From positions 1 through 64,000 of the forward strand of contig NZ_QKTV01000007.1 in NCBI RefSeq assembly GCF_003362725.1: a stretch of DNA of 64,000 nucleotides, in the 5' to 3' direction. This DNA comes from Winogradskyella aurantiaca (GTDB taxonomy: Bacteria; Bacteroidota; Bacteroidia; Flavobacteriales; Flavobacteriaceae). Both the position numbers and the translations under genes were made by a program. The notes beneath the pieces were generated by a model, which had not been told where the DNA came from, did no database searches, and worked only from the letters and a program-made list of their open reading frames with translations. Every line of letters starts with the position of its first letter. The first letter of the stretch is position 1. Below are positions 12,827 through 60,393 of the stretch, piece by piece.

Positions 12827-13768
12827 ATGAGTGATATTCTTCATATTACCAATGGCGACAATCTTACAGATTATCTAAGAGAATTAGATTTTAATGACCC
12901 TATTGTTACCTGGCAGGAAATGTTATGCGAAGGTCCTACCATTGCTGCAATTGATTCAAAAGAATTTTTTAAGATTCGTCGAACGTTCCTTAAGGACTTT
13001 TACAATATTGAAGTTAATGAGCAAGAATTATTTCAGGAATTGGCCAAATTGAATAAGGCCAATGACTATGATGAAATAGTGCTTTGGTTTGAATATGATC
13101 TCTTTTGTCATATTAACATGATTGGTGTAATTAATTTATTGCATCAAAAAGAGATCAACACCAATTTGAGTTTGGTTTGTAGCGGTCGAATTAAAGGAGA
13201 GAAAAGCCTAAAAGGATTAAGTGAATTAACTCAAGATCAATTGCTGTTACACTACCGAGATAGAGTTCAACTTACAAACGATGATAAGAAACTAGCCATT
13301 GCCTTATGGCGAACCTATTGCGGAAAGGATCATAATATTTTTAAGCCCTATATAACCAAGCCATCCAATTTTGAGTATATGGGAAGCTGCCTTAAGGCCC
13401 ATCTTAAAAGGTTTCCAGATCAAAACAATGGTCTCAGTACAATAGAAACAAATATCCTAAAACTAATTAGAGATGTTGACGTAAAATCGGTTCATCATTT
13501 ACTTGGTTATATTTTAAATTATCAAGGATACTACGGTTTTGGAGATGTTCAATTTGAACGGATAATTAATAATCTTAAACCATTCTTTCTGCAATCACAA
13601 AATGGATTGGAGTTAAATCGTGAAGGTCATGAGGCTATTTTAGGCCATCATAAAGTGGCGCAAAAGGTTAATAATCATATGGTTTATGGTGGTGTTAATC
13701 GCATGGATTATTATTTCAGCACCAAACAAAACAAACTGATCAAATCAATTCTCAATAATGTCCATTAA
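12827..13768 (+). CDS. DUF1835 domain-containing protein
   Basis: 313 aa, ATG. The N-terminal segment MSDILHITNGDNLTDYLRE and the following VTWQEMLCEGP are characteristic of DUF1835 (residues 3-110). IVLWFEYDLFCHINMIGV is a strongly conserved motif of the same family. The C-terminal portion (200-300) is a small helical domain with a winged-helix-like run (LSTIETNILKLI). No catalytic residue pattern is obvious; members are of unknown function and often neighbour RNA or translation genes. Soluble, no signal peptide. The 3' end overlaps the next ORF by 11 bp, implying coupled translation. Confidence 0.85.
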   Translation: MSDILHITNGDNLTDYLRELDFNDPIVTWQEMLCEGPTIAAIDSKEFFKIRRTFLKDFYNIEVNEQELFQELAKLNKANDYDEIVLWFEYDLFCHINMIGVINLLHQKEINTNLSLVCSGRIKGEKSLKGLSELTQDQLLLHYRDRVQLTNDDKKLAIALWRTYCGKDHNIFKPYITKPSNFEYMGSCLKAHLKRFPDQNNGLSTIETNILKLIRDVDVKSVHHLLGYILNYQGYYGFGDVQFERIINNLKPFFLQSQNGLELNREGHEAILGHHKVAQKVNNHMVYGGVNRMDYYFSTKQNKLIKSILNNVH

Positions 13769-14630
13769 AAATTCAGAGCTGATCCTAAATGCCGATGGAA
13801 GTGTATACCATCTAAACTTAAAACCAGATAATATTTCGGATACTATTATTTTCGTTGGGGATCAGGATAGAGTTGAAATCATAACTAAACATTTTGATAG
13901 TATCGAGTTCTCAACGCAGAAGCGTGAGTTTAAAACTCAGACAGGCTATTTCCATGATAAACGAATTACGGTTATTTCTACAGGAATTGGTCCAGACAAC
14001 ATAGACATTGTACTAAATGAACTTGATGCCTTGGTCAACATCAATCTGGAAACTAGGCAACCAAAAGAGAATCTTGTTAGTTTAAACATCATTAGAATTG
14101 GGACTTCAGGCTCTCTTCAAAAAGAAATCCCTGTAGATTCCTTTGTCTTGAGTTCTCATGGATTGGACATTAATGGAATGCTGCATTTTTATCAAATTGC
14201 AAGTATTGGTAATCCAGAAATTGAGAATGCTTTTATGGAACACACCCTTTGGGACTTAAATAAGGCAAGACCTTTGGTCATTAACAATTCAAAATTTTTA
14301 GAGAATTACTTTGATAGTGCGGAGTTTCACAAAGGAATTACCGGTACGGCGGGTGGGTTTTACGGGCCTCAAGGAAGAGTATTACGTCTACCTTTACAGG
14401 ATGTTAATCTCAATAGTAAACTAGAAAGTTTTAGCTTTGACGGATTAAATATTTCAAATTTTGAAATGGAAACATCGGTAATTTATGGTCTATCAAAACT
14501 TTTAGGTCACGAAGCCCTGTCTCTTAACGCCATTATAGCCAATAGAGCTACTGGTGAATTTAGTAGTGACCCAAGAGCCACTGTCGAACGACTCATCTTA
14601 CATGCCCTAAATCGAATCGTAAATATCTAA
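13758..14630 (+). CDS. Nucleoside phosphorylase (uridine phosphorylase-like)
   Basis: 290 aa. PNP/UDP family alpha/beta fold: IIFVGDQDRVEII corresponds to the phosphate-binding GDxxR loop, VISTGIGPDNIDIV to the ribose loop, IIRIGTSGSLQ to the (V/I)RxGTxG signature, and NFEMETSVIYGLSKLLGH to the ribose-2' hydroxyl MEM/Glu motif. Catalyses phosphorolysis of nucleosides to base plus ribose-1-phosphate in salvage. The base preference cannot be read; sequence flavour is closer to uridine phosphorylase than to purine PNP. Starts inside the DUF1835 gene (11-bp overlap); the NMT1-like gene begins 9 nt downstream. Confidence 0.88.
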   Translation: MSIKNSELILNADGSVYHLNLKPDNISDTIIFVGDQDRVEIITKHFDSIEFSTQKREFKTQTGYFHDKRITVISTGIGPDNIDIVLNELDALVNINLETRQPKENLVSLNIIRIGTSGSLQKEIPVDSFVLSSHGLDINGMLHFYQIASIGNPEIENAFMEHTLWDLNKARPLVINNSKFLENYFDSAEFHKGITGTAGGFYGPQGRVLRLPLQDVNLNSKLESFSFDGLNISNFEMETSVIYGLSKLLGHEALSLNAIIANRATGEFSSDPRATVERLILHALNRIVNI

Positions 14631-14639
14631 GAAAACTTT

Positions 14640-15494
14640 ATGCTTACCGTTAAAGTTGGTGGTGTCCCTGAACATTTTAATTACCCCTGGTATCTGGCCT
14701 TAAAAGATGGTGCTTTTAAAAAACAAAATATAAATTTAAGGTGGGTAGATTGTCATGGCGGAACTGGAGAGATGTGTGGAGCACTGAGGAACAATGAAAT
14801 TGATATAGCAATCATACTTACCGAGGGAATTGTGTCCGATATTATTAAAGGAAATCCTTCCTCAATTGTTCAAACCTATGTCAGTTCACCACTAATTTGG
14901 GGGATTCATGTATCAAACAACTCTCAATATGAAGACATTTCTGATCTTCGTGGAAAAATTGCAGCTATAAGCAGAATGGGTTCTGGATCACACCTTATGG
15001 CCTATGTCAATGCTCAAAATCATGGGTGGGATTTAGAAAACGACATGAACTTTTATATTGTCAATAATCTTGAAGGTGGTGTTAAAGCTTTAATTAATGG
15101 AGAAGCTGATTATTTTTTATGGGAACATTTTACAACCAAACCATTTGTAGATAGAAATGTTCTAAAAAAAATAAGCGACTGCCCTACTCCATGGCCATGT
15201 TTTGTTATTGCAGTGAGGCAAACATTTTTAGATGAAAACAGGATGGCATTAGAGAGAATACTTGAAATTATAAATTTCTATACATTCGGAATTAAGAAAA
15301 TACCCAATTTAGCAAATATTATTTCGGAGCGGTATGGCCAGAAATTTGAAGATGTAATGGAGTGGTTGAAATTGACAAATTGGGATCAAAGTGCACCAAG
15401 TGAATTTGTTATAAACCGGGTTCAAAATAGGCTACGAGGTTTAGGAGTTATCAATAATATTTTTGGCTATAATCAGCTAGTGCAAAAGCTTTAG
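14640..15494 (+). CDS. NMT1/THI5-like substrate-binding protein without signal peptide
   Basis: 284 aa. Type II periplasmic-binding fold of the NMT1/SsuA/THI5 kind: KVGGVPEHFNYPWYLALKDGAFKKQNI at the start (only short part quoted: VPEHFNYPWYLA), a GTGEMCGALRNNEIDIAI hinge segment, and LRGKIAAISRMGSGSHL in the second lobe. Two oddities: there is no signal peptide or lipobox, so it should be cytoplasmic, and no ABC permease or ATPase is adjacent. It ends a housekeeping operon with a nucleoside phosphorylase. It may therefore be a cytoplasmic ligand-binding or THI5-like enzyme rather than a transporter part. The yeast THI5 active-site His and CCCFC-like motif are not obvious, so an HMP-synthase role is not supported from this reading. 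Confidence 0.75.
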   Translation: MLTVKVGGVPEHFNYPWYLALKDGAFKKQNINLRWVDCHGGTGEMCGALRNNEIDIAIILTEGIVSDIIKGNPSSIVQTYVSSPLIWGIHVSNNSQYEDISDLRGKIAAISRMGSGSHLMAYVNAQNHGWDLENDMNFYIVNNLEGGVKALINGEADYFLWEHFTTKPFVDRNVLKKISDCPTPWPCFVIAVRQTFLDENRMALERILEIINFYTFGIKKIPNLANIISERYGQKFEDVMEWLKLTNWDQSAPSEFVINRVQNRLRGLGVINNIFGYNQLVQKL

Positions 15495-19365: not shown

Positions 19366-20526
19366 TTATTTGAGGCCTTTTAAAATAAAATCCAGGTCAG
19401 GATTTTTGTTGTCATTGGATTCATAGGCATCTGTGAAGTATCGTGGTGGAATAGCTAGACCTAAGCTTTGAAGTTTATTTATTGTATTTCTATACTGTAA
19501 GTCTACCTTTCCTGTTAACAGAACCCCTAGATCGTTCCCTTGGGAGGCGTATTTGTAAATATTTTTTAAGCCTTTTAAGTATAAATGATCTTTAGTAAAT
19601 CCGCCACCTCGATGAACTCTTAAAGTAATTGCAAAAGACTTATCCCTATTTAACTTGTAATGCCTGTGTAGCAGATCAAAGGTGTCACTGAAAGCATAGC
19701 CTTTAATTAAGGTATCAACAGCAATGACTCTATAAGCCAATTCCTTTAAACGTTCAATAGTAAGGGAACCGCTCATAAACTCAGAATACACTGCCAATCC
19801 TTCTTGAGTTTCTACATTCTTTGGAAAACCATTAGAAAAGACCTTAAGCGGTTGTAATAAGCCATTAAAGGTTGTGACCATATGCACTCCAATTTCATGA
19901 TTAGTGAGCACATCTAACTGATTTTTACTATAGCTATGGGTTTTACGCAAGACCAACGTTTGTGTGTTATTTAACACCATGGCGGCTGCAGATAAATTTT
20001 TTGAAATCTTTATGTTATAGTCAAAGTCGTAACGCTTAGAAAATTCCTCAAAAACTTCCTTGGCTTGCTGCGCATCAAATTTAGGAAGCATATCTTCACG
20101 ATTAGGGTCGTCATCAAAGCGCAATAAGAATTTAGCATTATCCAGGTCTTTCTCTGTTGGAGTCCCAAAACTCTTCAGGCTATTAAAATAAAACTTACGC
20201 CCTTGTCCAATTGTTTCAATGCACTCTATTAGACCAGAATACTCATAGATTATATCCTCATATAATTGGCGAATATCGTCATCGGCAATGCGCTCGAGCC
20301 TTTGAGAAAAAAATAATCGGTGTAGTTTATATCCATTAAACCGTTTCTTGGGATACTTAAATTGAGGTTCGTAATTGTATTTGGCGGAAAAGAACTTTTT
20401 CTTCTCTGCCGCAATATTCAACGGGTTGATATAATTGAGTAACTCAATATCACGGACCAACCTATGTAGATTAGCATCTATATCAAAGAGTTCTTTAAAT
20501 TCAGTAGTGGTTTTTATATGTGACAT
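19366..20526 (-). CDS. DUF1704 'QEGLA motif' metallopeptidase-like protein
   Basis: 386 aa. The signature of the flavohemoglobin expression-modulating QEGLA motif family (DUF1704) is clear: HEIGVH at 210-215 (an HExxxH zinc motif with His210, Glu211, His215) and QEGLA at 241-245, supplying a third ligand Glu242. The family is related to the eukaryotic MATCAP tubulin tyrosine carboxypeptidases, so carboxypeptidase-type activity is the best guess; the older name refers to an indirect effect and is not evidence of function. No signal peptide, so cytoplasmic. Last gene of a tightly packed leftward block; its ATG overlaps the stop of the amidohydrolase by one base. See the findings for the proposed ligase/hydrolase system. 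Confidence 0.9.
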   Translation of the reverse strand: MSHIKTTTEFKELFDIDANLHRLVRDIELLNYINPLNIAAEKKKFFSAKYNYEPQFKYPKKRFNGYKLHRLFFSQRLERIADDDIRQLYEDIIYEYSGLIECIETIGQGRKFYFNSLKSFGTPTEKDLDNAKFLLRFDDDPNREDMLPKFDAQQAKEVFEEFSKRYDFDYNIKISKNLSAAAMVLNNTQTLVLRKTHSYSKNQLDVLTNHEIGVHMVTTFNGLLQPLKVFSNGFPKNVETQEGLAVYSEFMSGSLTIERLKELAYRVIAVDTLIKGYAFSDTFDLLHRHYKLNRDKSFAITLRVHRGGGFTKDHLYLKGLKNIYKYASQGNDLGVLLTGKVDLQYRNTINKLQSLGLAIPPRYFTDAYESNDNKNPDLDFILKGLK

Positions 20527-21356
20527 TACGCCTTTATACTATTCTTAAAATGAGCGGCATGTTCTGGGATCATAATCCTTAGTTGTTTTTCTACAGCGGT
20601 TACCACCTCTGGGTAAATAACTTGATCGTATTCATCACAATAGATTTTAGCAATCTCAGTTGCCAGTACCAAAGTATTATTGAAATTATTCGTGATAAAT
20701 CTTAAAAAGTACCCATTCCCAAAAAACGTATTGTTTATGGCTGCCGTTTGCTTGATTCCATTTGGTAATTTCAAATTCGATAGCACCTGTCTCCAATCTT
20801 CTATCATGGAACCAAACCTTTTATTATCAATATTCTTTGTACCTAAATTCCACGTAGGCACTTCTCTATCCCAACGTTGCCAATTGTAACTATGCATGTC
20901 ATAGACAACACACGTTTGATGGATTTCTTCTAGTTTAGAAATTAAAGTTTGGACTACCTTATAAAACGAATCATGTTTTTTTAAACTTTTTTGTCTTTCG
21001 TCTTCCGTCAAAGGGTTGCGCCATAATTGCTTGCCCCAGGCTGTTTCAAAAACTGCTTCTTCTGGGAACCTATTAAGATCATATTCAAATCGTGAATCTC
21101 TCCCTGCGATAACAATTGGATGATTTATAACCATGTTTTTTGTCTCTGGATCCTCTTCGTACCATCGGTCATACTCACTATGTAAACAATTGTCCCAAAG
21201 TTCCTTTCTAAATTCATGGCCATCATGAATGGCCGCACATACATAGTGCACATAATCTTGAATCTTCAAGGTAAACGAGTAATCCTCAGAGACGGCCTCA
21301 AAAGTTTTTTGATTGTTTATTCTATCAATGATCGTATTTATTGAAAGACGCTCCAT
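20526..21356 (-). CDS. N-formylglutamate amidohydrolase-like protein
   Basis: 276 aa. Motifs of the N-formylglutamate amidohydrolase (FGase, PF05013) fold: HDGHEF at 44-49 with two His, RFEYDLNR at 89-96, and VYDMHSYNW at 151-159, which together supply the zinc ligands and substrate Arg. FGase releases formate from N-formyl-L-glutamate at the end of one histidine catabolic route. No hut genes are adjacent, and the partners (ATP-grasp, TerB-like, DUF1704) suggest a different amide substrate. One-base overlaps on both sides (start/stop TAATG arrangements) indicate strict translational coupling. Confidence 0.88.
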   Translation of the reverse strand: MERLSINTIIDRINNQKTFEAVSEDYSFTLKIQDYVHYVCAAIHDGHEFRKELWDNCLHSEYDRWYEEDPETKNMVINHPIVIAGRDSRFEYDLNRFPEEAVFETAWGKQLWRNPLTEDERQKSLKKHDSFYKVVQTLISKLEEIHQTCVVYDMHSYNWQRWDREVPTWNLGTKNIDNKRFGSMIEDWRQVLSNLKLPNGIKQTAAINNTFFGNGYFLRFITNNFNNTLVLATEIAKIYCDEYDQVIYPEVVTAVEKQLRIMIPEHAAHFKNSIKA

Positions 21357-21691
21357 TATAAAGATTTAAACAGACGGTTCAGGCACCTAAACATGTTTTG
21401 CTCGTTGATGTTGAAGTTTCCATCTGAGAAAAATAATGTTTGAATATCCGTCATTAAAACATCCACATCGTCACTAGTATAAGCGTGTTGTTTTAAACTT
21501 GTCATAATTTTATTAATGCTTTGATAATCATTATGGTGATCAAACTCATTATGGATGTCCTGAAACGTTTGCATATCAACCTTAGATATGATAATGTTTC
21601 GCTCAGTATTACTCTCTTTAAAGTCTGAGTTGGCAGCGTATAAAAGGACATAAGCTATAAGTTCATCGCGTGTCCACTCGATTGTTTTCAT
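21356..21691 (-). CDS. TerB-like small helical protein
   Basis: 111 aa, all-helical. The arrangement ELIAYVLLYAANSDF ... ERNIIISKV ... FFSDGNFNINEQNMFRCL resembles the TerB fold (two acidic helices around a metal or cofactor site), but identity is too low for certainty. No signal peptide. It sits between the ATP-grasp ligase (15-nt gap) and the amidohydrolase (1-bp overlap), so it is likely a subunit or regulator of that system. An alternative is an unrelated helical adaptor. Confidence 0.65.
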   Translation of the reverse strand: MKTIEWTRDELIAYVLLYAANSDFKESNTERNIIISKVDMQTFQDIHNEFDHHNDYQSINKIMTSLKQHAYTSDDVDVLMTDIQTLFFSDGNFNINEQNMFRCLNRLFKSL

Positions 21692-21706
21692 TGTAATACA
21701 AACAGA

Positions 21707-22744
21707 TTAGGCTTCATCCACCGTCTTACGAAGTTTTGTAATTCGGTCAAATTTCTGAAGTTTGTCAATTACTTTACTTTCTAAAAAGTCAATAACCTTC
21801 TCTTCTACTTTACGCTTGTTTTTATATACCTTATTGATATAAGTAATACCCCCTGGAGACATAACATTAACTTCAACTAATTTGCCACCTATGACATCAA
21901 TTCCAACAAAATATAAGCCATCTTTTACCAGCTTTGGTCCTATTTGCTTGCATAAGGCTTTTTCTTCCTTAGTAAGTGAATGTTTTTGCACCGAGCCGCC
22001 AGCAGTAACATTTGAACGGTGATCATCCTGACCTGGAACCCGTTTCATGGCACCAACAGGTTCTCCATTGAGCAACAAAATACGAACATCTCCTTTGTCA
22101 GCTCCTTCAATATAGTCTTGTAGGATCACATAGTTAGAGTCGTCATCACCAGAAGTAATATAAAAATCTAATAGTGAATTAATATTGTTCATAGCAGATT
22201 TCTCGATAAGAATAACTCCAGAACCCCCAAATCCATTTAATGGTTTAATAATCATCTTATCGGCCTTAGATTCTTTAATCTGTCGAATTAGATAATTTTT
22301 ATTCTTTGATACATGTGTATTTGGTATAATATTACTATGGGCATCACCAAAGGCTGCCGTATAAAGTTTGTTATTAGCCTCTCGCATACCTTGTAGAGAA
22401 TTAACAATAAACACATCATCTTTAACCGAATCCAGGAAATTTAACATTATCGGATCTAGCGGTGGATTGGCTCTAAAGAAAATAGCATCAAACCCAGCTA
22501 ATGGTAACATCTCGTCTCTGAGTTGAACCTTATTGTAAAATGTTTTTAAGGCATTTGGACACTTATCCATACGCTTAACCACCTTACAAAACGCATTGGT
22601 AACACTATCTCTAATGGTCAAATTTGAGGGTGTGCAGGTAGCAACACCATGACCTCGTTTAACACATTCTTTAATTAGTGCTAAACTCGTGTCATTTTCA
22701 GGATCTATATCCTCCCAGGGATACATGATAAAACAAATGTTCAT
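21707..22744 (-). CDS. GshB-like ATP-grasp ligase
   Basis: 345 aa from the ATG at 22744; a TTG two codons upstream is not needed. Full-length relative of glutathione synthetase (GshB): N-terminal MNICFIMYPWEDI, the GFGGSG loop (IIKPLNGFGGSG) that covers ATP, the DKGDVRILLLNGEP strand, GNL-like SNVTAGGS and the metal-binding VGIDVIGGKLVEVNVMSP near 290-310. It joins an amino acid or peptide to another carboxylate using ATP. A glutathione role is uncertain: no gshA is next to it, and the window also encodes BshA, the first enzyme of bacillithiol, the usual low-molecular-weight thiol here. The neighbours (TerB-like, FGase-like, DUF1704 peptidase) suggest synthesis and removal of a modification. 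Confidence 0.85.
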   Translation of the reverse strand: MNICFIMYPWEDIDPENDTSLALIKECVKRGHGVATCTPSNLTIRDSVTNAFCKVVKRMDKCPNALKTFYNKVQLRDEMLPLAGFDAIFFRANPPLDPIMLNFLDSVKDDVFIVNSLQGMREANNKLYTAAFGDAHSNIIPNTHVSKNKNYLIRQIKESKADKMIIKPLNGFGGSGVILIEKSAMNNINSLLDFYITSGDDDSNYVILQDYIEGADKGDVRILLLNGEPVGAMKRVPGQDDHRSNVTAGGSVQKHSLTKEEKALCKQIGPKLVKDGLYFVGIDVIGGKLVEVNVMSPGGITYINKVYKNKRKVEEKVIDFLESKVIDKLQKFDRITKLRKTVDEA

Positions 22745-22794: not shown

Positions 22795-24120
22795 TTATGA
22801 AACTGGTTTATAATTATCATCCCATTCTTTGGGTTTAGGATCCTTTAACTTTCCCAAAGATTTAGCAACCAACATTGAAACGGTGGCATCACCGGTCACA
22901 TTAACAACAGTTCTACACATGTCTAGCGGTCGGTCAACAGCGAAGATTAAAGCCAGTCCAATTGGTAGCAATTCAGATGGAAAGCCTACTGATTCTAATA
23001 CAATGACCAGCATTACCATGCCGGCGCTAGGAACGGCAGCACTTCCTATAGATGCTAATAAAGCCGTTAAAACAATTATTAATTGATTGGTAAAGGTCAA
23101 TCCTTCAGGCCAAATGACCTGCATTATAAAAACAGCAGCAATACCTTGATACAAACTTGTACCATCCATATTTACGGTGGCACCAACTGGTAGTACAAAA
23201 CCTGAAACTTCTTTATCAACACCAATGTGCTCTTCTACCCGTTCCATTGTTACCGGTAAGGTAGCGGCACTTGAGCTGGTTGAAAATGCTAAAAGCTGCG
23301 CAGGGCTTATCTTATTGAGGAACCAAAGTGGTGATTTTCCAGTAAATGATTTAACTAACACTAAGTAGAAACCAATCATAATAATCAAACCAACAACAAC
23401 ACATAGGGCATACCACAGGAGTTTGAGTAAAATTTCAGTATCATCAAAAGCAATAATAACGTTAGCTAACAAAGCGAATACAGCATACGGAGCAAATAAC
23501 ATAATTAGATCCACCATTTTCATGACAATTTCATTGAGGGAAACAAAAATATCAATCATTGGCTTGGCCTTATCTTCAGGGATCAAAAGCAAGCAGATAC
23601 CAACAAATAAAGCAAAGAAAATTACTTGAAGCATCTTAGCTTCTCCCATAGCTTTAAATATGTTACTTGGAAAAATATCAACTAAGGGCTGTAAAGGTCC
23701 AGCACTTTTTTGAGCAGATGCCTTTTGGAGTTTATCAGTAACCCCCGCATCATTCTGATACTTTTGCTCAATTTTAGTAATGGTATCTTCAGACATTCCT
23801 ACTCCCGGTTTGACAATATTTACAATAGATAGACCAATAACAATGGCTATCATTGTCGTGCCTATATAAATTGCTATAGTCCGAAGCCCCATGGATTTAA
23901 TCTTGGAAATATCTTTTAAATCCGAAATCCCTTTAATTAATGATGCCAGGATCAATGGAACCGCAATAAGTTTTAAAAGATTGATGAATATCGTACCAAA
24001 TGGTGTAATCCAATCGGTTATAAACGTCTTTCCCCCATCAATGGAATTCATTATAAAACCGAATATGATACCAATCACCATTCCAATTATAATTTTCCAA
24101 TGTAATGCCAACTTCTTCAT
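22795..24120 (-). CDS. Dicarboxylate/amino acid:cation symporter (DAACS)
   Basis: 441 aa. Eight helices plus two re-entrant loops of the glutamate/aspartate symporter family. The Ser-rich HP1 loop (AFSTSSSAATLPVT) and the GATVNMDGT motif of TM7 are intact, as is the DRPLDMCRTVVNVTGDA stretch of TM8 that binds the amino acid. Imports dicarboxylic or acidic amino acids with Na+ or H+ at the inner membrane. A gap of 18 nt after aroC and 50 nt before the ligase gene makes a shared transcript possible, and acidic amino acids are plausible substrates of the ligase; this link is inference. Confidence 0.93.
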   Translation of the reverse strand: MKKLALHWKIIIGMVIGIIFGFIMNSIDGGKTFITDWITPFGTIFINLLKLIAVPLILASLIKGISDLKDISKIKSMGLRTIAIYIGTTMIAIVIGLSIVNIVKPGVGMSEDTITKIEQKYQNDAGVTDKLQKASAQKSAGPLQPLVDIFPSNIFKAMGEAKMLQVIFFALFVGICLLLIPEDKAKPMIDIFVSLNEIVMKMVDLIMLFAPYAVFALLANVIIAFDDTEILLKLLWYALCVVVGLIIMIGFYLVLVKSFTGKSPLWFLNKISPAQLLAFSTSSSAATLPVTMERVEEHIGVDKEVSGFVLPVGATVNMDGTSLYQGIAAVFIMQVIWPEGLTFTNQLIIVLTALLASIGSAAVPSAGMVMLVIVLESVGFPSELLPIGLALIFAVDRPLDMCRTVVNVTGDATVSMLVAKSLGKLKDPKPKEWDDNYKPVS

Positions 24121-57574: not shown

Positions 57575-57582
57575 TATCTTTG
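57575..57582 (+). promoter_or_regulatory. -7 element TATCTTTG of uvrA
   Basis: Exact TAnnTTTG, 21 bp before the ATG at 57604. A TTG at 57548-57550 lies 24 bp upstream, a little too far for an ideal -33. The element overlaps the TTG at 57580 that opens the longest frame, which excludes that TTG as the start. Confidence 0.6.
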
Positions 57583-57603
57583 CAAAATTCTGCGATAAAT
57601 CAC

Positions 57604-60393
57604 ATGAGTCAAACACTAAAATCAATAGACCCAAAAAGCCATATATTAATTAAGGGGGCAAGGCTTCATAACCTTAAAAATATCGATGTAGTCATTCCTA
57701 GAAATGAGTTGGTTGTTATTACAGGTTTATCAGGTTCTGGCAAGTCCAGTTTGGCATTTGACACCTTGTACGCTGAAGGTCAAAGGCGTTATGTTGAGAG
57801 TTTATCTAGTTATGCAAGACAATTCTTAGGAAGACTCAATAAGCCACAAGTTGATTACATTAAAGGCATTGCACCAGCCATAGCAATCGAGCAAAAAGTT
57901 AATTCTACCAATCCACGTTCAACAGTTGGGACTACCACTGAGATTTATGATTATCTAAAATTACTATTTGCCAGAATTGGTGAAACCTTCTCACCTATTT
58001 CAGGGAAACTGGTTAAAAAACACAGCGTAACTGATGTTTTAGATTACATATCTGTGTTTGAGGAACGCAGTAAACATCTGCTGCTTTCAAAAATAGTATT
58101 GGAAGAAGGAAGAGCTATAGAAGATAAGCTTAAAGCGCTTCTGCAGCAGGGATATTCTAGAGTTAAAATTGGACCTGAAGTAATGCGAATTGAACAAGCA
58201 CTGGAATCAGCAGTTCAGGATACTGTTTTTCTGGTCGTTGACAGAATTGTCTACTCCAACAATGAAGATTTTAAAAATAGATTAGCGGATGCCATTGAAA
58301 CAGCTTTTTTTGAAGGGCGTGGTGAATGTATTATAGAAAGTTTAGAAACTAAAGAACGGGCCGTTTTCAACAATAAATTTGAAGAAGATGGAATGCTATT
58401 TCTCGAACCAAATGTTCACTTGTTCAGCTTTAACAATCCCTATGGAGCTTGCCCTAAATGTGAAGGTTACGGTGATGTCATTGGCATTGACGAAGATTTG
58501 GTTATCCCAAACACCGCTCTATCTGTTTTTGAAAATGCCATTTTCCCTTGGCGTGGTGAAAGTATGAGTTGGTATCGTGATCAACTGGTTAATAATAGTC
58601 ATAAATTCAATTTTCCCATTCATAAACCATTCTTCGAGCTAACACAGGAACAAAAAGATCTCATTTGGACTGGAAACGAATATTTTGAGGGATTAAATAG
58701 TTTTTTTGAGGAATTAGAGGCTAAGGCATATAAAATTCAGAATCGAGTCATGTTGTCCCGATATAGAGGTAAAACAAAATGTTCGACCTGTCATGGTAAA
58801 CGTTTACGAAAGGAAGCTGAGTATGTTAAGATTAACGGGGCAGCCATTACAGATTTAGTAGATTTACCACTTGATGAACTTGGAGACTTTTTTAAAAACC
58901 TGGAATTAAACCAATACCAGAAATCCATTGCCAAACGACTATTAGTAGAGATTAACTCCCGATTAGAATTTCTTTCAAATGTGGGGTTAGATTATTTAAC
59001 ACTCAATCGTAAATCTAACACCCTTTCAGGTGGAGAGAGCCAGCGAATTAATCTAGCAACATCACTTGGCAGCAGTCTGGTAGGTTCTATGTATATCCTT
59101 GACGAGCCTAGTATTGGTCTGCACCCAAAGGACACTGAACGTCTAATTTCGGTACTTCAGTCGTTACGAAATCTAGGTAATACAGTAATTGTTGTAGAAC
59201 ATGATGAGGATATCATGAGAGCTGCAGACACCATCATTGATATTGGTCCTAAAGCTGGAACTTTTGGTGGTGAGGTTGTAGCTACTGGAAACTTTAAAGA
59301 CATTTTAGAATCAAATACATTAACAGCTAATTATTTAAATGGCAACCTGGCTATTAAAGTTCCAACCAAACGACGCAACTCTAAATATCAGGTTACTATT
59401 AAAGGAGCAAGGGAGCATAATTTAAAGAACATTGATGTTAGTTTTCCACTTGAATCGCTTACCGTTATTACCGGAGTCTCAGGAAGTGGTAAATCCACAT
59501 TGGTAAAAAACATACTGTATCCTGCCTTACAGAAAGAATTTACTGGATTTAGTGATAGAATTGGCGAGTTTACTAGTTTAGAAGGTAATTTCAGTTGCAT
59601 TGAACAAGTTGAGTTTATTGATCAAAACCCTATTGGAAGATCTTCAAGGTCAAACCCAGTCACCTATATCAAAGCTTATGATGACATCCGTTCACTTTTT
59701 GCAAGTCAGAAATTAAGTAAAATAAGAAAATATCAACCTAAACATTTCAGTTTCAATGTTGATGGCGGCCGCTGTGAAACCTGCAAAGGCGAAGGAGTTG
59801 TCACCATTGAGATGCAGTTTATGGCAGATGTTCATCTAACCTGTGAGACTTGTAATGGCAAACGTTTTAAGAAAGAAGTTCTTGAAGTCAAATTTGGCGA
59901 AAAATCTATATCTGATATATTGGAACTTACTATTGATGATGCTATCACTTTTTTTGATGAGAATGATTCTTTTAAAATAAAAAACAAACTTCAACCACTT
60001 CAAGATGTTGGCTTAGGGTATGTAACTTTAGGGCAATCCTCTTCTACTCTTTCTGGCGGAGAAGCTCAGCGCATAAAGCTCGCATCATTCTTAGGTAAAG
60101 GGCAAAATGCACCTAATACCCTCTTTATTTTTGATGAACCCACAACAGGACTTCATTTTGACGATATCCAAAAATTATTGACCTCTTTTAATGCCCTGAT
60201 TTCAAAAGGACATTCTATTATTATTATTGAACACAATATTGATCTGATTAAATGTGCCGATCACATAATTGATCTTGGTCCAGGTGGCGGAAAACATGGT
60301 GGTCATATGGCAGCATTTGGGACTCCTGAGGATATTATTAAACAAACAGAATCAATTACTGGCGAATACCTTAGGGATAAGCTTAATGTCTAA
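57604..60393 (+). CDS. uvrA: UvrABC excinuclease subunit A
   Basis: 929 aa from the ATG at 57604 (the longer frame starts at a TTG at 57580 that is part of the promoter). Two ABC ATPase cassettes: Walker A GLSGSGKSSLAFDTLYAEGQ in the first and GVSGSGKST in the second; signatures LSGGESQRI and LSGGEAQRI; zinc-finger Cys pairs (CPKCEGYG, CSTCHGKRL, CETCKGEG, CETCNGKRF). Scans DNA for bulky lesions and loads UvrB in nucleotide excision repair. uvrB and uvrC are not in the window. Its stop abuts the stop of the converging DUF3667 gene. Confidence 0.98.
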   Translation: MSQTLKSIDPKSHILIKGARLHNLKNIDVVIPRNELVVITGLSGSGKSSLAFDTLYAEGQRRYVESLSSYARQFLGRLNKPQVDYIKGIAPAIAIEQKVNSTNPRSTVGTTTEIYDYLKLLFARIGETFSPISGKLVKKHSVTDVLDYISVFEERSKHLLLSKIVLEEGRAIEDKLKALLQQGYSRVKIGPEVMRIEQALESAVQDTVFLVVDRIVYSNNEDFKNRLADAIETAFFEGRGECIIESLETKERAVFNNKFEEDGMLFLEPNVHLFSFNNPYGACPKCEGYGDVIGIDEDLVIPNTALSVFENAIFPWRGESMSWYRDQLVNNSHKFNFPIHKPFFELTQEQKDLIWTGNEYFEGLNSFFEELEAKAYKIQNRVMLSRYRGKTKCSTCHGKRLRKEAEYVKINGAAITDLVDLPLDELGDFFKNLELNQYQKSIAKRLLVEINSRLEFLSNVGLDYLTLNRKSNTLSGGESQRINLATSLGSSLVGSMYILDEPSIGLHPKDTERLISVLQSLRNLGNTVIVVEHDEDIMRAADTIIDIGPKAGTFGGEVVATGNFKDILESNTLTANYLNGNLAIKVPTKRRNSKYQVTIKGAREHNLKNIDVSFPLESLTVITGVSGSGKSTLVKNILYPALQKEFTGFSDRIGEFTSLEGNFSCIEQVEFIDQNPIGRSSRSNPVTYIKAYDDIRSLFASQKLSKIRKYQPKHFSFNVDGGRCETCKGEGVVTIEMQFMADVHLTCETCNGKRFKKEVLEVKFGEKSISDILELTIDDAITFFDENDSFKIKNKLQPLQDVGLGYVTLGQSSSTLSGGEAQRIKLASFLGKGQNAPNTLFIFDEPTTGLHFDDIQKLLTSFNALISKGHSIIIIEHNIDLIKCADHIIDLGPGGGKHGGHMAAFGTPEDIIKQTESITGEYLRDKLNV

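Follow-up and report, generated by a model that had tools for sequence, protein, structure and literature searches.

Enzyme systems in which an ATP-grasp ligase is accompanied by its own hydrolases are of a known kind. The ligases GshB, RimK and tubulin tyrosine ligase (TTL) each extend a carboxyl end, which in the case of TTL, also of the ATP-grasp type, is a C-terminus, and the mammalian N-acetylaspartylglutamate (NAAG) cycle consists of the RIMKLA/RIMKLB ligases, glutamate carboxypeptidase II and aspartoacylase. Here we describe a related set of genes in Winogradskyella aurantiaca, where a stretch of 64,000 nucleotides (the window; positions 1 to 64,000 of contig NZ_QKTV01000007.1) carries an operon for a GshB-like ATP-grasp ligase, a TerB-like helical protein, an enzyme of the N-formylglutamate amidohydrolase type (FGase) and a metallopeptidase of the MATCAP/DUF1704 family. 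The unit is made of three genes rather than four: ligase, FGase and MATCAP. According to the accessible part of PMC11957791, RimK adds glutamates to S6 and RimB removes them again, and the rim genes deviate from the host tree; that of PMC10499314 reports that the human TMCP/MATCAP enzymes trim tubulin, taking off C-terminal residues as well as chains of glutamate.

Like the NAAG cycle, the three-gene module combines a single ligase of the ATP-grasp type with a zinc carboxypeptidase and an M14-like deacylase, and three genomes that carry it have a deacylase from the AstE/AspA (aspartoacylase) family. Unlike the NAAG cycle, it is a bacterial operon, its ligase is GshB-like rather than RimK-like, its carboxypeptidase is a MATCAP rather than an M28 enzyme, and it usually has an FGase instead of an aspartoacylase. 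As in the RimK/RimB system and in the rlo operon of Pseudomonas, an ATP-grasp ligase is encoded next to a peptidase, and the hypo-osmotic link of rlo (PMC12239564, accessible part) is matched by that of the Photobacterium genes at low salt described below; the module differs from RimK/RimB in adding a third, M14-like hydrolase. Compared with TTL and MATCAP/TMCP, MATCAP is a true homologue, whereas the module ligase comes from the GshB clade and not from TTL, the genes form a single operon and there is no tubulin. The literature searched contained no description of this combination and no publication on the three genes together, and the accessible parts of PMC2845819, PMC4431377 and PMC8407117 do not mention the module. 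The 2009 survey of ATP-grasp amidoligases by Iyer and colleagues lay outside the search and may list the neighbourhood.

We tentatively favour, with somewhat less than even confidence, a writer/eraser cycle whose substrate would be an acidic peptide, probably N-acylated, in the manner of the NAAG cycle or of RimK/RimB; we infer its substrate, its direction of flux and the complex. The GshB-like ligase would use ATP to activate the carboxylate of an acidic acceptor and attach an amino acid to it. MATCAP, as a zinc carboxypeptidase probably complexed with an FGase domain, would remove the C-terminal residue again, and the FGase, or an AstE/AspA-like enzyme in some genomes, would take the N-acyl group off the acidic residue. 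A small N-acyl-glutamate or N-acyl-aspartate peptide would be a more likely acceptor than a protein, and with such an acceptor the patchily spread module would work much as the mammalian NAAG cycle does. All four genes of the window lie on the minus strand at 22744-19366:

21707..22744, minus strand: GshB-like ATP-grasp ligase, core; NCBIfam PRK12458 subfamily; ATG start, with an in-frame TTG 6 nt upstream
21356..21691, minus strand: TerB-like all-helical protein, accessory; known from a fold model, without Pfam match
20526..21356, minus strand: FGase-type zinc amidohydrolase, core; PF05013; fused to MATCAP in some genomes
19366..20526, minus strand: MATCAP/DUF1704 metallopeptidase, core; PF08014; HEIGVH and QEGLA motifs

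An earlier note, made from the sequence alone, had described this order and position, a 15-nt gap between the ligase and TerB-like genes, and 1-base stop/start overlaps at the TerB-like/FGase and FGase/MATCAP junctions, all of which are borne out by the window sequence; the synthesis of the products in fixed proportion, which it had added, does not follow from the overlaps. The genome (3.1 Mb, 25 contigs) is rated 100% complete, and the nearest named loci among the matches listed are those of Winogradskyella, with a MATCAP identity of 74-81%.

The linkage of the three genes is solid. In a phylum sample of 395 Bacteroidota genomes, MATCAP was found in 19 and the ligase clade (at least 395 bits with a model of the operon ligases) in 18, all 18 of which also encode MATCAP; only two other genomes passed E 1e-40 for the ligase model, at 202 and 218 bits. 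The probability of this overlap by chance is 3.3e-30 on the assumption that genomes are independent, which they are not. Furthermore, at least 580 genome stretches encode a MATCAP relative. Among the best 80 of these from named genomes, which are all Flavobacteriaceae-like and not a spread sample, ligase, FGase and MATCAP occur together in 72, with rhodanese, TerB-like or other open reading frames interrupting the module genes in some; a further locus without the ligase (L058) lies near a contig end. The linkage of ligase, FGase and DUF1704 described in the earlier note is thus supported, and it extends to the Proteobacteria, a second phylum.

Two forms of the module were apparent. In clade A, the form of the window, the order is ligase, FGase and a MATCAP of ~390 residues, optionally with an SDF-family symporter gene ahead of the ligase and with rhodanese and TerB-like genes ahead of the FGase. 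In clade B, the order is FGase, a long MATCAP of ~610-690 residues, and ligase; it is also the form of rhizobia and their relatives, namely Pararhizobium, Sinorhizobium meliloti (strain 1021, on pSymB) and Aminobacter, together with a record that bears the name Roseateles, and these are the four of the seven proteobacterial records with the clade B set. A Photobacterium plasmid encodes the ligase and an FGase-MATCAP fusion, the two genes overlapping, and two genomes of the sample (G103 and G118) combine a clade A ligase and FGase with a following MATCAP and ligase of clade B. Tree distances of ligase and MATCAP were correlated at 0.96 over 47 shared loci (every third of the 80 loci, together with loci of the phylum sample and of the proteobacterial records), a value reached in none of 999 permutations, and at 0.79 and 0.85 within clade A (34 loci) and clade B (13 loci), respectively; vertical descent alone would also produce such congruent trees. 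In two of the proteobacterial records (L119, Vibrio, and L125, Photobacterium) the module stands behind a divergent gene of the LysR type and a gene for DUF413 (MaoP), a possible regulator or landing site; the LysR assignment in L125 was made by the appearance of the gene.

The deacylase position varies. Of the 18 loci of the phylum sample with ligase and MATCAP, 15 have an FGase and three an AstE/AspA-like gene (Fisher p 0.0012 over the 18 loci, relatedness ignored). Those three, all clade B (G367, G273 and G053), lack an FGase genome-wide at E 1e-4, and a scan of 124 loci found the AstE/AspA-like gene in exactly these; it is co-directional with the ligase in two of them. The FGase and AstE/AspA families both hydrolyse N-acyl acidic amino acids, and this shared activity gives the best clue to what the module does chemically. 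The swap favours a small N-acylated acidic compound over a protein and makes the NAAG cycle the nearest working model. A bolder version of the favoured cycle would be NAAG-like throughout, with a GshB-clade ligase, a MATCAP carboxypeptidase and a deacylase of the FGase or AstE/AspA type that an FGase domain would hold to MATCAP; the tubulin detyrosinases and deglutamylases of eukaryotes would in that case descend from such a peptide-metabolite enzyme. We consider this version doubtful. If the substrate were a small acyl-peptide, many bacteria of the sea and the rhizosphere could be making an unrecognised metabolite. The regular company of a GshB-clade ligase and of an interchangeable N-acyl-amino-acid hydrolase turns the role of bacterial MATCAP into a testable reaction. 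Just upstream of one clade B module, a single protein is encoded that combines a D-Ala-D-Ala-ligase-type ATP-grasp domain and a SET domain (L032:12314-13792).

Is the ligase simply the glutathione synthetase of the cell, in an operon that handles ordinary glutathione? The resemblance is real: the ligase matches PF02955 and PF02951, its nearest solved structure by sequence is GshB (1gsa, E 4.9e-67), and it narrowly passes the PRK05246 glutathione synthase model (282.9, cut-off 272), as does a Photobacterium relative (291.7), whereas three clade B relatives fail it (214-221). It does not reach the TIGR01380 glutathione synthetase model (239.6 against a cut-off of 299.05), on which GshB of Escherichia coli and two canonical Bacteroidota enzymes score 407-464. 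PRK12458 separates the two groups: the window ligase scores 458 bits (cut-off 408) and five tested operon ligases 397-501, one of them (L031) just below the cut-off, compared with only 194-222 for the three canonical GshB enzymes. This separate subfamily spans two phyla. In a tree with two canonical sequences, the operon-ligase clade is the sister of canonical GshB.

We next compared 95 operon ligases (82 of clade A and 13 of clade B) with the same three canonical enzymes at positions of functional importance in GshB (86, 210, 225, 233, 283, 288 and 292). The catalytic residues R86, R210, R225, R233 and N283 are retained in all 95, T288 is replaced by glycine in all 95, and E292 is lost in 94. 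As to the first enzyme of glutathione synthesis, profile searches of the window genome found neither PF04107 (E <=10) nor PF04262 (E <=0.001), and control genomes gave matches. Among the 19 MATCAP genomes, PF04262 was found in none and PF04107 (the GCS2 family) in six, the latter a point in favour of glutathione; gshA of either class was not found in the other 13. Canonical GshB (E 1e-40) was met in two sampled genomes, above the TIGR01380 and PRK05246 cut-offs, with a GCS2 gshA one or two open reading frames away and without MATCAP. Since the window genome lacks a detectable gshA and T288 is lost throughout, the operon ligase is unlikely to be an ordinary glutathione synthetase, in line with the earlier note, by which it need not make glutathione. 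The missing gshA, the TIGR01380 score and the T288/E292 changes led us to reject glutathione as the product, and this explanation of the operon appears very improbable.

The peptidase of the window scores 332 bits against PF08014 (cut-off 27). Pfam calls this family MATCAP, and the structure of human MATCAP (7z5g) was matched at E 9.7e-17 by a profile built from the bacterial sequences, which bears out the relationship that the earlier note had given for DUF1704. The motifs HEIGVH (210-215) and QEGLA (241-245) are present as described there, and H210, E211, H215, Q241, E242, G243 and A245 are invariant in an alignment of 18 relatives. On the TIGR02421 QEGLA equivalog (cut-off 338.65), the window protein (310.5) and L031 (325.6) fall below and the S. 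meliloti relative (353.1) lies above. NCBI gives these bacterial relatives the placeholder name 'flavohemoglobin expression-modulating QEGLA motif protein'; our literature search did not find the origin of the 'flavohemoglobin expression-modulating' label, and the QEGLA-protein name turned up only in a transcriptome table. A weak MATCAP-like match (E 6e-15) was seen in an unverified, unannotated record of Pseudomonas phage Y1 (L124), perhaps host DNA, whose open reading frames gave no match at 1e-4. Five proteins had no match in PADLOC, although absence from a library excludes nothing, and a phage or defence role is unlikely.

The FGase scores 55.5 bits against PF05013 (cut-off 28.9) and only 24 bits against the TIGR02017 HutG N-formylglutamate deformylase (cut-off 278.75). 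A sequence search of solved structures gave no match, so a fold search was done: the AlphaFold model (predicted local distance difference test, pLDDT, 87) matches two N-formylglutamate amidohydrolases, 2q7s at Z 20.4 (rmsd 2.9, 237 aligned) and 2odf at Z 19.9, followed by M14 carboxypeptidases (Z 10-12). FGase and MATCAP are a single fused protein in three loci (L025, L119 and L125). Moreover, the N-terminal domain of the long MATCAPs aligned with the FGase profile in one hhalign comparison (probability 95.3%, E 2.1e-8, 9% identity); HDGH and DxH, the motifs present in most active-looking FGases, are missing from it. The fusions and the motif-less domain suggest that MATCAP keeps an FGase-like domain attached even where that domain could hardly work as an enzyme. 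In the fused Vibrio protein (L119:6122-8113), the FGase domain has lost the conserved H155 and reads DMYAYN at the site of the DxH motif, which is retained by 14 other aligned FGases.

In the accessible part of PMC10308900, growth of Photobacterium damselae RM-71 at 1% compared with 3% NaCl goes with induction of A0J47_RS17020 ('GshB'), treated by its authors as glutathione synthetase (+38.4-fold), of the QEGLA gene A0J47_RS17025 (+27.5-fold) and of RimK (52-fold). From the near-consecutive locus tags and the related Photobacterium plasmid, we infer that the first two would be module genes; the 38-fold induced 'GshB' is then probably the module ligase and not a glutathione synthetase. The company of RimK is one of the arguments for protein tagging, in which the ligase would extend a protein C-terminus or an acidic side chain and MATCAP would trim it, as TTL/MATCAP do on tubulin and RimK/RimB on S6. 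The trimming of tubulin by the human enzymes points the same way, RimK/RimB is a proven bacterial ligase/protease pair, and the rlo-operon ATP-grasp gene acts with proteases in hypo-osmotic survival, as stated in the accessible part of PMC12239564. On the other hand, the ligase clade is sister to canonical GshB, a small-peptide enzyme, and the window ligase falls below both RimK models (TIGR00768, 92.3 with a cut-off of 143.4; NF007764, 40.3 with a cut-off of 331). The FGase and AstE/AspA families, from what is known of them, act on N-acyl amino acids and not on proteins, and there is no candidate target gene within the operon. All together, protein tagging seems rather unlikely.

Several observations weigh against the favoured cycle on a small acidic peptide. 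The main counter-evidence comes from seven of the 80 loci, which have the SDF symporter and MATCAP without ligase and FGase; in these seven genomes, ligase searches give only distant ATP-grasp matches (27-36% identity, E 3e-16 to 9e-10) and no FGase was found genome-wide. A Vibrio plasmid (L119) encodes the FGase-MATCAP fusion with no ligase within 7 kb, a Pseudoalteromonas plasmid has a lone MATCAP, and the nineteenth MATCAP genome of the phylum sample (G186) has a divergent MATCAP without partners. MATCAP thus outlives ligase and FGase (7/80), whereas the ligase never outlives MATCAP in the phylum sample, which argues against a strict cycle. There are other points: the AstE/AspA-like gene is convergent with the ligase, not co-directional, in the third of its loci; the scores of the AstE-like genes stay far under the equivalog cut-offs for aspartoacylase and for succinylglutamate desuccinylase, so that we claim family membership only; the S. 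meliloti ligase alone of the 95 retains E292; no acyltransferase was seen beside the module among the named neighbours; and induction at low salt would run opposite to what the synthesis of an osmolyte requires, were that the product.

The asymmetry between MATCAP and ligase would fit a cycle in which removal comes first, as with tubulin. It is also what speaks for a hydrolytic role, in which acidic peptides or conjugates, either imported or spent, would be degraded by MATCAP and FGase, with the ligase repairing or recycling the product: MATCAP occurs without the ligase and the ligase clade never without MATCAP in the Bacteroidota sample, and the seven loci pair MATCAP with a dicarboxylate symporter alone. 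The symporter, however, commonly adjoins aroC with or without the module (see below), and the congruent ligase and MATCAP trees in two phyla suggest that the ligase is central where present. We regard hydrolysis first as decidedly unlikely. As for the addition and removal of an amino acid on a protein or small peptide, as proposed in the earlier note, the small-peptide form is favoured, with protein tagging as a lesser possibility, and MATCAP also occurs without the ligase, unlike one half of a strict pair.

The TerB-like protein had been counted as a member of the system; it goes with a tandem rhodanese instead. It has no Pfam match (PF05099, cut-off 24.4, was not reached, and a homologue scores 16.9 bits). 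Its model (pLDDT 90.5) has its top fold match in 2h5n, which we take to be TerB-like (Z 9.9, a level possible by chance for helical proteins; rmsd 3.0, 99 aligned), the next match being at Z 5.1. The TerB-like domain is encoded by a separate gene in 13 of the 80 loci and is fused to the tandem rhodanese in eight (L051, L052, L067, L099, L101, L103, L108 and L112). In five genomes (L167-L171), a rhodanese follows the SDF gene without the module in the stretch read, once with TerB (L170). Given the fusions and this module-free rhodanese/TerB pair, we reject the TerB-like protein as a partner of the ligase, and the window gene is probably the remnant of a rhodanese-TerB unit. A search of the window genome, run without a positive control, did not find the rhodanese.

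Two further genes of the window deserve mention:

22795..24120, minus strand: SDF-family dicarboxylate (glutamate/aspartate-type) symporter, neighbour; PF00375
29250-30392: bshA; TIGR03999, 552.7 bits (cut-off 273.7)

The symporter gene immediately precedes the ligase gene, with 50 nt to the ATG of the latter and no terminator-like site listed in the interval. Its suggested role as a dedicated supplier of substrate was not upheld. Among 30 SDF loci, the ligase is within the 4.3-kb locus in 14 and not in 16. We then looked at 16 longer SDF regions, one with the ligase (L144) and 15 from the group in which it was not visible, that is, all of that group except L162: 13 have no module gene at all, nine of these directly beside aroC, and the remaining three comprise the whole module (L144), a lone MATCAP and an FGase at a contig end. 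With SDF adjoining aroC without module genes in nine of 16 regions, the symporter was rejected as a part of the system.

The presence of bshA near the operon was confirmed, and bshC is present in all 19 MATCAP genomes, in line with the earlier note's suggestion of bacillithiol as the thiol. Rhizobia use glutathione. Because rhizobia carry the same module, bacillithiol is not its specific partner. Elsewhere in the window, a DUF1835 protein gene overlaps that of a uridine-phosphorylase-like protein, with a substrate-binding-protein-like gene close behind (12827-15494), and positions 57580-60393 encode a UvrA-family protein of 937 residues.

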